Shown here: positions 43,583-53,008 of the stretch, piece by piece
Layout: each line of letters starts with the position of its first letter
Numbering within the stretch: the first letter of the stretch is position 1
NCBI GenBank assembly: GCA_011525625.1
Contig: WYAX01000012.1
Location: 620,001 to 684,000, forward strand
Direction: 5' to 3'
DNA length: 64,000 bases
Source of the DNA: Nitrospira defluvii
Lineage (GTDB): Bacteria > Nitrospirota > Nitrospiria > Nitrospirales > Nitrospiraceae
Translations under genes and position numbers: made by a program
Notes under the pieces: model-generated
Databases searched by the model: none
What the model was told of the DNA's origin: nothing
What the model saw: the letters and a program-made list of their open reading frames with translations, nothing else

Positions 43583-44018
43583 GGCGCGCTGGGGGGACAC
43601 GGGTGATCGCTCGTCGAGCAGGCTCGGCGGGAGGAAAGTCCGGACTCCAAGGGCAAGGACGCTGGATAACATCCAGGCGGAGCGATCCGACACCAGCACC
43701 ACAGAAAACAAACCGCCGATGGCCGCTGTTGGAGACCTTGGTTTCTTCCGGCGGCTCAGGTAAGGGTGAAACGGCGGGGTAAGAGCCCACCGCGGTGATG
43801 GCGACATCAACGGCACGGTAAGCGTCGTCCGGAGCAAGACCAAATAGGGAGACGCCCGCGGGCTCGTAGAGCTCAGCGGAAAGGCCGGCCCGGCCGAAGT
43901 CTCCGGGTAGGTTGCTTGAGGCTTGAGGTAACTCGAGTCCCAGAGAAATGATCATCCCCGGGTGAGCGCAAGCTTCACGCGGGACAGAATCCGGCTTATA
44001 GGGTTTCTCCAACGCGCC
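43583..44018 (+). ncRNA. rnpB: RNase P RNA, type A
   Basis: The catalytic RNA of RNase P, which trims tRNA 5' ends. Universally conserved segments appear in order: GAGGAAAGTCCGG (about 43632), CAGAAAACAAACCGCC (about 43700), AAGGGTGAAACGG (about 43762), GGTAAGAGCCCACCG, ACCAAATAGGGAGACG (about 43838), and the closing GGGACAGAATCCGGCTTATAG (about 43981). The ends GGCGCG at 43583 and CGCGCC at 44013-44018 form the first helix, with about 13 of 14 pairs including G-U. A T-run follows. The glutaredoxin-like gene on the other strand ends inside it (43952). Confidence 0.95.
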
Positions 44019-48040: not shown

Positions 48041-48691
48041 ATGGCTGATCGAGCGGTCGGGATGCCGATCGTGAAAGAAGGATTGCCGTTTGTCGGCAGT
48101 CTCGTTGGTTCGACCCTGCTGTGTGGGCTGGTAGGATGGACTATTCCCGCGGTGGTGAGCGGCGGGTTTCTGCTCTTCACCGGGTGGTTCTTTCGAAACC
48201 CGAGTCGAACCATTCCTCAACAACCGAATGTGGTGGTCTCGACCGGGGACGGTAAGGTCATTGCGATCGAGGAAGAGTTCGAACCGCGGTATTTGAAGGA
48301 AAAAAGCATCCGCGTGACGGTGTTTCTGAACGTGTTCGACGTGCATGTGAACCGAATGCCTTGCGCCGGAACCGTCGAGGGAGTGAGTTATCAGCCCGGA
48401 CAGTTTCTCGTCGCAAGCAAGCCGGAGGCAACGCTCCGGAATGAACAGAATGCCGTGATGCTGAAAACCGAGTCCGGTGCCAAGGTTCTCTGCGTGCAGG
48501 TGGCCGGGTTGATTGCTCGGCGGATCGTGTGCTGGGTCGGGCAGGGTGACCGCGTGCAGCGCGGTGAACGGTTTGGACTGATCAGGTTCGGTTCGCGGAT
48601 GGACACGTTCCTTCCCCTGGGCTCGAAGATTTGTGTGTCGATCGGTGACCGGGTCAAGGGGGGCGAAACCATCGTGGGGGAACTCCGATGA
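48041..48691 (+). CDS. psd: Phosphatidylserine decarboxylase (short type)
   Basis: A 216-residue decarboxylase proenzyme that makes phosphatidylethanolamine. Two hydrophobic helices are at the start (residues about 17-50). Self-cleavage to the pyruvoyl enzyme is expected at the Gly-Ser of RFGSRMD near residue 185; the short form with this motif is the archaeal-type PSD and not the LGST-type. The conserved VFLNVFDVHVNR holds the catalytic His. The ATG at 48041 follows GGAGG. The stop overlaps the pssA start (ATGA). Confidence 0.94.
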   Translation: MADRAVGMPIVKEGLPFVGSLVGSTLLCGLVGWTIPAVVSGGFLLFTGWFFRNPSRTIPQQPNVVVSTGDGKVIAIEEEFEPRYLKEKSIRVTVFLNVFDVHVNRMPCAGTVEGVSYQPGQFLVASKPEATLRNEQNAVMLKTESGAKVLCVQVAGLIARRIVCWVGQGDRVQRGERFGLIRFGSRMDTFLPLGSKICVSIGDRVKGGETIVGELR

Positions 48692-49488
48692 AGTCACCAA
48701 CTATGAAACCTCAGTTCGCGAGGGGGAATCGGAAGCGACAGGCGATGTACCTGATCCCCAACCTCTGTACTACGGGGAATCTCTTCTGCGGCGTGTTTGC
48801 GATCCTGTCGGTATTTAACGGGCAGCATCTGTCGGCTGCCATCGCCATCCTGGTGGGCATGATTTTCGACATGCTGGACGGAAAGCTGGCGCGGCTAACG
48901 AACAGTACGGGGCAGTTCGGCATTGAGTACGATTCCCTGTCCGATGTCGTGTCGTTCGGTGTCGCTCCAGGGCTGCTGATCTATTCATACGCGTTGAGCG
49001 GACAGGGTACCTTCGGTGTGGCGGTGATGTTCGCCTATGTCGCCATGGGTGCGGTCCGGCTGGCTCGATTCAACGCCACGGTGAGCAACGCCGACAGCAA
49101 ATACTTCACTGGGTTGGCCATCCCGGCGGCGGCCGGGGTAATTGCCTCGCTGGTGATCTTTGACTTGCACATCACTCAGCTGGGCTCGGAACTCAAACCG
49201 CTGCTCATCTTGGTGATTACGTTTGCCCTGGCGTTCTTGATGGTCAGTACGATCAAGTATCGCAGTTTCAAGGACCTCAAATTCCGGCGGGGTGATCACT
49301 TTACGTATCTGGTCTGGGGCATTCTGGCGTTGATGTTGATTGTCGCGTGGCCTCAGGCTATGCTGTTTGTGGCGTTCGGTGGTTACGCCATGTCCGGCCC
49401 GGTGTCACGCGTGTGGACGATGGTGGCCAAGGGCGCCGGTAAACCGGTTACGAAAGTCGATGGGCCGGTGTTGGATTCGAAAGAGTAG
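48688..49488 (+). CDS. pssA: CDP-diacylglycerol-serine O-phosphatidyltransferase
   Basis: A 266-residue membrane enzyme making phosphatidylserine, the substrate of the preceding gene product. The CDP-alcohol motif is complete in DMLDGKLARLTNSTGQFG followed by EYDSLSD (D-G-x2-A-R-x8-G-x3-D-x3-D). About seven hydrophobic helices follow. psd and pssA form a two-gene phospholipid unit between ilvC and the leuA T-box. Confidence 0.95.
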   Translation: MKSPTMKPQFARGNRKRQAMYLIPNLCTTGNLFCGVFAILSVFNGQHLSAAIAILVGMIFDMLDGKLARLTNSTGQFGIEYDSLSDVVSFGVAPGLLIYSYALSGQGTFGVAVMFAYVAMGAVRLARFNATVSNADSKYFTGLAIPAAAGVIASLVIFDLHITQLGSELKPLLILVITFALAFLMVSTIKYRSFKDLKFRRGDHFTYLVWGILALMLIVAWPQAMLFVAFGGYAMSGPVSRVWTMVAKGAGKPVTKVDGPVLDSKE

Positions 49489-49524
49489 CATTGGCGTTGA
49501 CGAGGAGTAGTAGGGAGCGTCAAC

Positions 49525-49752
49525 CGAACTGAGAGAGCTGGTGGACGGTGCAAACCAGCCGGTTGCCTTCTGAACTCACCTCTGAGCCGGATTCGTGAAC
49601 CCCGTATCGACGGGTGGTAATGAGTCCCGACTGATCCCCGTTATGGATCGTATGAGGGTGTCGGATGAAGAGGGCTTCATCCGGTGCTGAATCAGGGTGG
49701 TACCACGAGGCTCACAAGGCCTTCGTCCCTGTCCAGGGGCGGAGGCTTTTTT
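49525..49752 (+). promoter_or_regulatory. T-box riboswitch leader of leuA (leucine specifier)
   Basis: A T-box leader that senses uncharged tRNA. The Stem I region has GAGAGCTGGTGG (about 49532) and CGGTGCAAACCAGCC (about 49546). The specifier segment CTGAACTCACCTCTGAG has CTC (Leu) at 49575-49577 after GAA. The T-box core AGGGTGGTACCACG at 49694-49707 is followed by a terminator hairpin at 49718-49752 with a run of six T. Uncharged tRNA-Leu would favour the antiterminator and allow leuA transcription. The gene it controls starts about 150 bases later. Confidence 0.92.
49718..49752 (+). terminator. T-box regulated terminator
   Basis: The arms GCCTTCGTCCC and GGGGCGGAGGC pair with one bulge and G-U pairs, and TTTTTT follows. 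The left arm overlaps the sequence that the T-box core would engage in the antiterminator. Confidence 0.8.
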
Positions 49753-49903
49753 ATTGCCCGCATGCTGAAACGGGCTTCCAACTGTGTTCTCGGCTTGAAA
49801 ACATCCTCAATGTACCCACGAGGGTATGCCTCGGGTGTTTTCTCCGCCTGTGGCCGCGTTGGAAAGCCCGTTTGAGCATGCGGGAGATCAGGAGGAGGTT
49901 GCC

Positions 49904-51451
49904 ATGACTCGGATGATCAGAATATTCGATACGACGTTACGGGACGGCGAGCAATCGCCGGGAGCGAGCATGAACGTCGAAGAGAAGCTGATGATCGCCA
50001 AGCAATTGGCACGCCTCGGCGTGGATATTATCGAGGCGGGGTTTGCCTACAGTTCACCGGGAGACTTCGAGGCCGTGCGACGGATCGCTTTGGAGGTTGA
50101 GGGCCCGGTGGTCTGTAGTCTTGCGCGAGCAAGGCCGGAGGATATCACCAGGGCGTCGGAAGCGTTGAAAGGGGCCCCGCGCGTCAGGATCCACACGTTC
50201 TTGTCTACGTCCGACATCCACTTGAAGCATCAATTCCGGATGACGCGCGACGAGGCCAAGAAGCGGGCGGTGGACATGGTGCAGTTGGCGCGCACCTATG
50301 TGGACGACGTGGAGTTTTCTCCTATGGATGCCAGCCGTTCCGATCCCGCGTACTTGTGTGAGGTGATTGAAGCGGTGATTGCGGCCGGAGCAGGCACGAT
50401 CAATATTCCCGATACGGTCGGCTACGCCGTGCCTCAGGAGTTCGGTGAGCTGATTCAACGCATCAGGGACAGGGTGCCGAATAGCGGACAGGCCGTGATT
50501 TCAGTGCATTGCCACAACGATTTAGGCTTGGCGGTGGCGAATAGTCTGGCGGCGGTGGTGGCAGGCGCGGGGCAGGTGGAGTGCACCATCAATGGCATCG
50601 GCGAGCGGGCCGGGAACACCTCGCTGGAAGAAGTGGTCATGGGACTCCGGACCCGCAAGGATTGGTATGGGGCCGATACCAAGGTCGTGACGGAGGAAAT
50701 TGCCAAAACGAGTCGTCTGGTGAGCAAGATCACGGGGATGGTCATTCAGCCGAACAAAGCGATTGTCGGTGCCAATGCGTTCGCCCACACGTCAGGGATT
50801 CATCAAGACGGGTTGCTGAAGGATAAAACCACCTATGAAATCATGCGACCGGAGTCGGTGGGGCTGGAACAGGTCAAATTGGTGATGGGCAAGTTGTCCG
50901 GGCGTCATGCGTTCCGCCAACGGTTGGAGGATCTTGGCTACAAGTTGAGCGAGGAAGAGGTCAATCACGCCTTTGAGCGGTTTAAGCGGCTGGCGGATCA
51001 GAAGAAGGAGATCTACGAAGAGGATCTCGAGGTCATCGTATCGGAGGAAATTGCGAAGATGTCCGAACGGGTGGTCTTGAAGTCGTTTCAAGTGGAAAGC
51101 GGCACCAACAAGGTTCCGAAGGCGACGGTCGAATTGGAAATCGACGGAAAATTGGTGTCCCACAGCGGAACGGGCGATGGACCGGTGGATGCGGTCTATC
51201 GGACGATTGCGGCCATGACGCAGACCAAGAGCAAATTGTTGATGTTCGGCGTGAATGCCATCACTGGCGGGACCGATGCCCAGGGGGAGGTGTCGGTGCG
51301 TCTGGAAGAGGATGGGCGAACGGTCTCCGGACATGGGGCGGATACCGACATCATTACGGCGGCGGCGAGAGCCTACCTCAATGCGCTCAATAAGCTGGCG
51401 TACTTTGCGGCGAAGCAGGCGGAAGGGATTCAGAAGGTCAGCTTGATTTGA
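49904..51451 (+). CDS. leuA: 2-isopropylmalate synthase
   Basis: A 515-residue LeuA, the first step of leucine synthesis (acetyl-CoA plus 2-oxoisovalerate). The N-terminal HMGL-like domain has [16 protein letters not shown] and [15 protein letters not shown] with its metal ligands, and the C-terminal third is the leucine-feedback dimer domain ([20 protein letters not shown] and following). The ATG at 49904 has GGAGGAGG and the family's normal start; the frame is open from 49826 without support. Control is by the T-box leader in front and, by family knowledge, allosterically by leucine. Confidence 0.96.
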
Positions 51452-51931: not shown

Positions 51932-53008
51932 GTGAAAGCGAGAATTGCAGTCTTGGCCGGTGACGGAGTCGGCCGCGAAATTGTTCCGGAAGCGGTTAAG
52001 GTATTAAAGGCCGTGGCAGTGAGGTACGGGCATACCTTTGAATTTCAGTCGGCCGATGTCGGGGGGCATGCTATCGACAAGGTCGGCGTGCCGCTGCCGG
52101 CAGAGACCCTCACCATCGCCAAGCACAGTGACGCAGTGTTGCTGGGAGCCGTGGGCGGTCCGAAATGGGAAGGGTTGGAGTATAGCCTTCGCCCCGAGCG
52201 GGCCCTGCTTGGCTTGCGAGAACAACTGGGGCTCTATGCGAACCTTCGTCCGGCGAAACTGTATCCCATGCTGGCCGATGCCTCGACATTGCGTCGCGAG
52301 GTCATCGAAGGCATCGACATGCTGGTGATCCGTGAACTCACCGGCGGCATCTATTTCGGCAAGCCGAAAGGGATTGAGAAATTGCCCGGTGGCGGCGAGC
52401 GCGGGGTCAATACCGAAGTATATACGACCGAGGAAATCCGCCGGATTGCGGTGGTGGCCTTCGAGGCGGCGCGCAAGCGTCGGAAGAAGCTCATGTCGGT
52501 CGACAAGGCGAACGTGCTGGAGTCGTCTGAGCTTTGGCGGCGAGTGGTGACCGAGGTGCAGAAAGACTACGCCGATGTGGCCCTGAGTCACATTTATGTG
52601 GACAATTGTGCGATGCAACTCGTGCGAAATCCACGGCAGTTCGATGTGCTGCTCTGTAATAACATTTTCGGCGATATTCTGAGCGATGAGGCGGCGATGC
52701 TCACTGGGTCGATCGGCATGTTGCCGTCCGCCAGCGTCGGAGCAAAAGTCGGACTGTTCGAGCCGATTCACGGCAGCGCACCGGACATCGCGGGAAAGAA
52801 TATTGCGAACCCGATTGCGACCATTGCTTCCGCCGCCATGATGCTGTCGTACGCCTTTCAGTTGGATAAGGAAGCGGCGGCCATTGACCAGGCGATCGTC
52901 AAGACGCTCGAACTCGGATACCGTACCAGGGATATCCATGCCGAAGGGATGCGGCTGGTCGGTACCTCGGAAATGGGCGATGCCATCCTGCAGAATCTTC
53001 CTGCATAA
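51932..53008 (+). CDS. leuB: 3-isopropylmalate dehydrogenase
   Basis: A 358-residue LeuB, NAD-dependent oxidative decarboxylase of leucine synthesis. Key blocks are [20 protein letters not shown] (the substrate Arg residues and the Leu side-chain contacts), [29 protein letters not shown], and the metal-binding [21 protein letters not shown] and [14 protein letters not shown]. It starts at GTG 51932 with GAGAGG upstream. No leuC/leuD genes are in this window, so isopropylmalate isomerase is elsewhere. Confidence 0.96.

Follow-up and report, generated by a model that had tools for sequence, protein, structure and literature searches.

A leucine-type T-box riboswitch precedes leuA in Nitrospira

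Within the window, the whole 64,000-nucleotide stretch of DNA analysed here, the leader of leuA is, with a probability of roughly 0.9, a canonical full-length T-box riboswitch of the leucine type that would act by transcription attenuation, judging from its sequence and from comparison with its relatives. Searching the window with cmscan against Rfam 15 matched the T-box family RF00230 to the forward strand at positions 49488–49733 with 95.5 bits (gathering score 93; E-value 1.1e-19 for the window), and the match covered all model positions from 1 to 219. The 4.6 Mb genome has no other T-box. The gathering score is barely exceeded, and the matches of many relatives fall under it, as expected because the group is GC-rich and distant from the family's seed. 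An initial annotation of this DNA had proposed a T-box with a full core and a terminator, and the covariance search bore this out: Stem I, Stem II, Stem III, the antiterminator and the terminator could all be located. The annotated span of 49525–49752 had the correct end, since the T-run of the terminator reaches 49752, but its start missed about 37 nt at the 5′ side of Stem I. Stem I begins at about 49494, immediately 3′ of the pssA stop codon (49488), and 49525 lies inside it. The same annotation had called the genome Nitrospira-like, consistent with a LeuA that shares about 97% identity with the LeuA of Ca. Nitrospira defluvii, and from the genus we infer that the host is a chemolithoautotroph.

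The gene that follows the T-box, at 49904–51451 on the forward strand, is leuA, encoding 2-isopropylmalate synthase, as the annotation had it (NCBIfam TIGR00973, leuA_bact, 736 bits; NF002086), and a Shine-Dalgarno-like sequence, AGGAGGAGG, lies just before it at 49890–49898. Directly upstream of the T-box is pssA (48688–49488, forward strand; TIGR00473). The gene order is ilvB-ilvN-ilvC-psd-pssA-[T-box]-leuA-cupin-leuB-NHL-repeat-asd, in which the cupin and NHL-repeat labels were read from translations and not from a family search, and leuB (51932–53008, forward strand; TIGR00169) is, from this order, probably on the same transcript as leuA. A co-oriented pssA stands directly upstream in 137 relative loci, commonly 12–60 nt before a AGGAGTAGTA motif, and pssA relatives precede the T-box in other families as well. 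The leuC gene lies elsewhere in the genome and has no T-box. A scan for promoters, limited to sigma-70-like sites, recognised none. Because the T-box sits after pssA within the run ilvBNC-psd-pssA-[T-box]-leuA, its control probably extends to the leucine branch alone, with the shared ilv genes left ungated. Just upstream of ilvB, the window also contains a class A RNase P RNA (43591–44014, 281 bits).

Compensatory changes maintain two mutually exclusive folds, an antiterminator and a terminator

The antiterminator occupies 49694–49730 of the forward strand and comprises two helices, A1 (49694–49697 with 49727–49730) and A2 (49705–49710 with 49721–49726), identified from pairing in 32 sequences. 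An intrinsic terminator at 49716–49752, found by a terminator scan and by covariation, consists of a 15-bp stem (49716–49749) followed by the T-run. The strand CCTTCGTCCCT (49720–49730) is common to both structures: its partners are AGGG and ACGAGG in the antiterminator, and the 3′ arm in the terminator. The two folds therefore exclude each other. Across the 32 sequences, chosen to be diverse, 99.4% of cells were paired in the antiterminator, with double-sided changes in 3 cells of 2 pairs, and 96.3% in the terminator, with double-sided changes in 7 cells of 3 pairs; in a control in which partners were slid by 1–3 columns, 39–63% of cells were paired and double-sided cells numbered at most 2. 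Where the shared strand has changed, the 5′ strand of the antiterminator and the 3′ strand of the terminator have both changed to match, which is strong evidence for two mutually exclusive folds. The terminator stem and tail have a predicted energy of -24.6 kcal/mol, and the antiterminator region reaches at best -11.7 kcal/mol, in a fold that keeps the A1 and A2 pairing; a stronger terminator is expected because the switch needs tRNA to stay open. Nearly all relatives have a T-run 3′ of the terminator.

These observations also bear on whether the T-box might act mainly on leuA translation or RNA stability and not on transcription termination, which we consider improbable. Translational T-boxes are known elsewhere, and a second strong hairpin (49756–49886) lies near the ribosome-binding site. 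However, the antiterminator shares sequence with a strong, T-run-bearing terminator whose pairing is maintained by compensatory changes, the T-box contains no anti-Shine-Dalgarno pairing, and the second hairpin is absent from some relatives that retain both T-box and terminator.

The T-box motif permits A or G at the position that forms the foot of helix A2. In the window this pair is A–U (49705, 49726) in place of a G–U wobble, and among 167 loci it is A–U in 156, G–C in 3 and G–U in 8, with every G–U outside the host family. A conserved G–U at the A2 foot rejects charged tRNA by sensing its 3′-aminoacyl end, according to a review (PMC7583486). This wobble is a conserved detail of solved examples and not an Rfam membership criterion, and we do not claim the A–U foot as novel.

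The specifier and the bulge match a leucine tRNA

Stem I extends from about 49494 to 49587 on the forward strand. In the cmscan alignment, and in columns invariant among 18 species, it has a base with GA/UGA motifs, together with AGTA, AGAGAG and GGUG...GCAAACC apical parts, so that both the specifier loop and the AG(A)GA and GGUG apical motifs are present. At the aligned specifier position, 49575–49577, the codon is CTC (Leu), the specifier that the initial annotation had named, and the next base is a purine, A49578; a Leu codon followed by a purine fits the leuA gene downstream. We compared 170 leader loci from two overlapping sets, one of whole genomes and one of named GTDB genomes. Of these loci, 168 have CTC as the specifier and 2 have CTG, so that it is Leu in all 170, and the base 3′ of it is a purine in every locus, varying only between A and G. 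The two CUG loci (L026 and L033) represent a natural synonymous change in two lineages of the host family, one that would recruit tRNA-Leu(CAG). The window genome encodes five Leu tRNAs, among them tRNA-Leu(GAG) and tRNA-Leu(CAG), both with ACCA ends.

Downstream of Stem I, the sequence CCGTTAT at 49638–49644, an F-box-like part of Stem IIA/B, matches, in the cmscan alignment, the model's conserved CCGUUAU, and a Stem III hairpin spans 49661–49686 (cmscan alignment and sequence; both on the forward strand). The T-box bulge, TGGTACC, lies at 49698–49704 and is found in 166 of 167 loci scored. Its UGGU is complementary to the 3′ ACCA of tRNA-Leu(GAG), which in this genome has A73 and ends in ...GGCACCA. 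In the leuA leaders of related genomes, the Leu specifier, the bulge and the switch helices are all kept.

This conservation makes it very improbable that the T-box is a relic which has lost its response to tRNA. The genome has a single T-box and its helix A2 wobble is replaced by A–U, as might be seen in a relic, but a T-box is present in 109 of 109 good-quality genomes of the family, its specifier and bulge were called invariant, and its switch helices are compensated. A specifier read in another frame, as ACU (Thr) or UCA (Ser), and hence the sensing of a different tRNA, is scarcely credible: ACU overlaps CUC and is likewise invariant among the loci, but the alignment puts CUC where the specifier belongs, and the purine needed 3′ of it varies only between A and G, CUG replaces CUC in the two variant loci, which leaves Leu unchanged (in the +1 frame, UCR becomes UGG), and the target gene is leuA. 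We also rejected a leucine leader-peptide attenuator, as a leucine-rich ORF is absent; a scan of the leader ahead of the terminator found no ORF of at least 20 amino acids that carries a stretch of Leu codons.

The best reading thus remains that charging of tRNA-Leu controls leuA, given the specifier, the matching tRNA and the compensated, mutually exclusive folds. Direct control of leuA by charging of tRNA-Leu(GAG), as initially annotated, is supported in this form with one amendment, which is that the element lies inside an operon and would gate leuA together with the genes that follow. Computation gives the match to RF00230, a conserved specifier that reads Leu, the fitting tRNA, the pair of exclusive folds and the order of the genes, and from these we infer tRNA binding, charging dependence, read-through and transcript start sites as follows. 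Transcripts would arrive from ilvB-ilvN-ilvC-psd-pssA, or from a promoter inside pssA, and run directly into Stem I, where the CUC specifier would pair with the GAG anticodon of tRNA-Leu. With uncharged tRNA, ACCA would pair with UGGU of the bulge and hold the antiterminator, and transcription would read on through leuA and probably also through leuB and asd. With charged tRNA, the strand 49720–49730 would instead enter the stronger terminator and transcription would end. Leucine synthesis would in this way be switched on while leucine tRNA is uncharged, and the upstream genes common to leucine and isoleucine/valine would stay outside T-box control.

The T-box is found throughout the host family and patchily beyond it

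In the host family, Nitrospiraceae, 138 of 147 sampled genomes carry the T-box, including every good-quality one, and the nine genomes that lack a match are all at most 89% complete. A sample of 57 genomes across the order contained the T-box in 21 of 21 members of the host family and in 0 of 36 genomes from three sister families. Elsewhere in the phylum its occurrence is patchy, with 12 further genomes carrying one. The gene 3′ of the T-box is leuA nearly everywhere we checked, and in most of the readable cases from the phylum outside the family.

A dispersed palindrome occupies the leader at two sites

Outside the T-box, the stretch from the terminator to the ribosome-binding site of leuA holds a copy of a previously undescribed palindromic hairpin (49756–49886, forward strand; 116 bits with our model R1), and the segment 49745–49903 has a predicted fold of -82 kcal/mol (z -7.8). 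The core of the palindrome, ACGTAC-N4-12-GTACGCCTC, has 28 matches in the genome, compared with 0 for a reversed control. A covariance model built from 27 copies has 95 matches in the genome, a count that includes weak ones and second-strand matches of the same palindrome, and 41–72 in four relatives. The arms vary among copies yet covary, with 99 double-sided cells compared with at most 26 for slid partners.

Under simple ORF calling, 13 of 30 copies begin no more than 1 base from the stop codon of a co-oriented ORF, which suggests either a site preference or a role at 3′ ends. Loci with a palindrome placed in this way, the stop often being TAG, include L265, L270, L272, L273, L275, L276, L279, L280, L286, L289 and other loci. 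Of 79 named relatives, 53 have the palindrome in their leuA leader, and there are relatives with an empty site.

We rejected three identities for the 49756–49886 hairpin. It is not part of the T-box, as it is missing from some relatives that retain the T-box; it is not a known RNA family, having no notable Rfam match; and it is not a RAYT-mobilised REP, the genome having a lone, weak Y1_Tnp gene to which we found no link. Like REP and BIME-like repeats, the palindrome is a dispersed extragenic element with tens of copies, at times in tandem. Unlike them, it is about 130 nt long, with a constant core and arms that are specific to each copy yet complementary, and it has neither a linked partner transposase nor an Rfam family.

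Nine genomes of a neighbouring genus (L069–L075, L077 and L079) carry a further copy, in reverse orientation, within Stem I of the T-box itself (for example L069:1986–2211 and L074:1615–1839). The insertion site is on the 5′ strand of Stem I, just before AGAGAG, and the specifier and switch helices are intact. Shortened Stem I palindromes occur in L076, L078 and L086, and L107 has a remnant. In most carrying loci, the palindrome is predicted to project as a side hairpin from a Stem I that is otherwise complete.

Most likely, the palindrome is a mobile or recombining element that the leader tolerates. It occupies two sites, one between the terminator and leuA in the window genome and most relatives, and one on the 5′ strand of Stem I in a clade of relatives. 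Colonisation of the leader at both sites with perhaps some recruitment as a working part, such as an insulator, a processing site or an extension of Stem I, is a tentative idea that we regard as unlikely. Were it true, the palindrome would turn Stem I into a three-way junction bearing a hairpin of about 110 nt and would leave the specifier and the switch helices intact. The Stem I insertions offer natural tests of extra RNA load on a T-box sensor.

Discussion

T-boxes are best known from Firmicutes, as the initial annotation had remarked in presenting this one, but T-boxes upstream of leuA outside that phylum have already been reported in Geobacter and Pelobacter (PMC2494555), and a 2013 survey described T-boxes in Firmicutes, Actinobacteria, Chloroflexi and Thermus/Deinococcus as well as Geobacter (PMC3766115). 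The elements of Geobacter sulfurreducens and Pelobacter carbinolicus resemble the Nitrospira one in being typical T-boxes directly upstream of leuA in a non-Firmicute, and differ from it in belonging to another phylum. Because of these Geobacter reports, the Nitrospira leuA T-box is not a new kind; it is a known kind of switch in a little-described bacterial group. We found no Nitrospira T-box named in the open-access surveys that we read, and an entry in TBDB, which claims coverage of major phyla (PMC7778990), is possible.

With the long-Stem I attenuating T-boxes (RF00230; for example the glyQS type of Firmicutes, PMC7583486), the Nitrospira element shares a Stem I that has a specifier loop and apical T-loop elements, Stem II with its F-box, Stem III, an antiterminator with the UGGNACC bulge, and the terminator. 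It differs from them in being GC-rich, in its A–U foot of helix A2 in place of G–U, in its position after pssA within an ilv-pss-leu run, and in the Stem I palindrome of some relatives.

The T-box is present in every good genome of the family, absent from the sampled sister families and patchy in its recurrence in the phylum, which makes its origin, ancestral or transferred, testable on a tree. With this finding, the family that includes a major nitrite-oxidising genus gains a canonical tRNA-sensing T-box, which would gate the leucine branch of a branched-chain amino acid operon.
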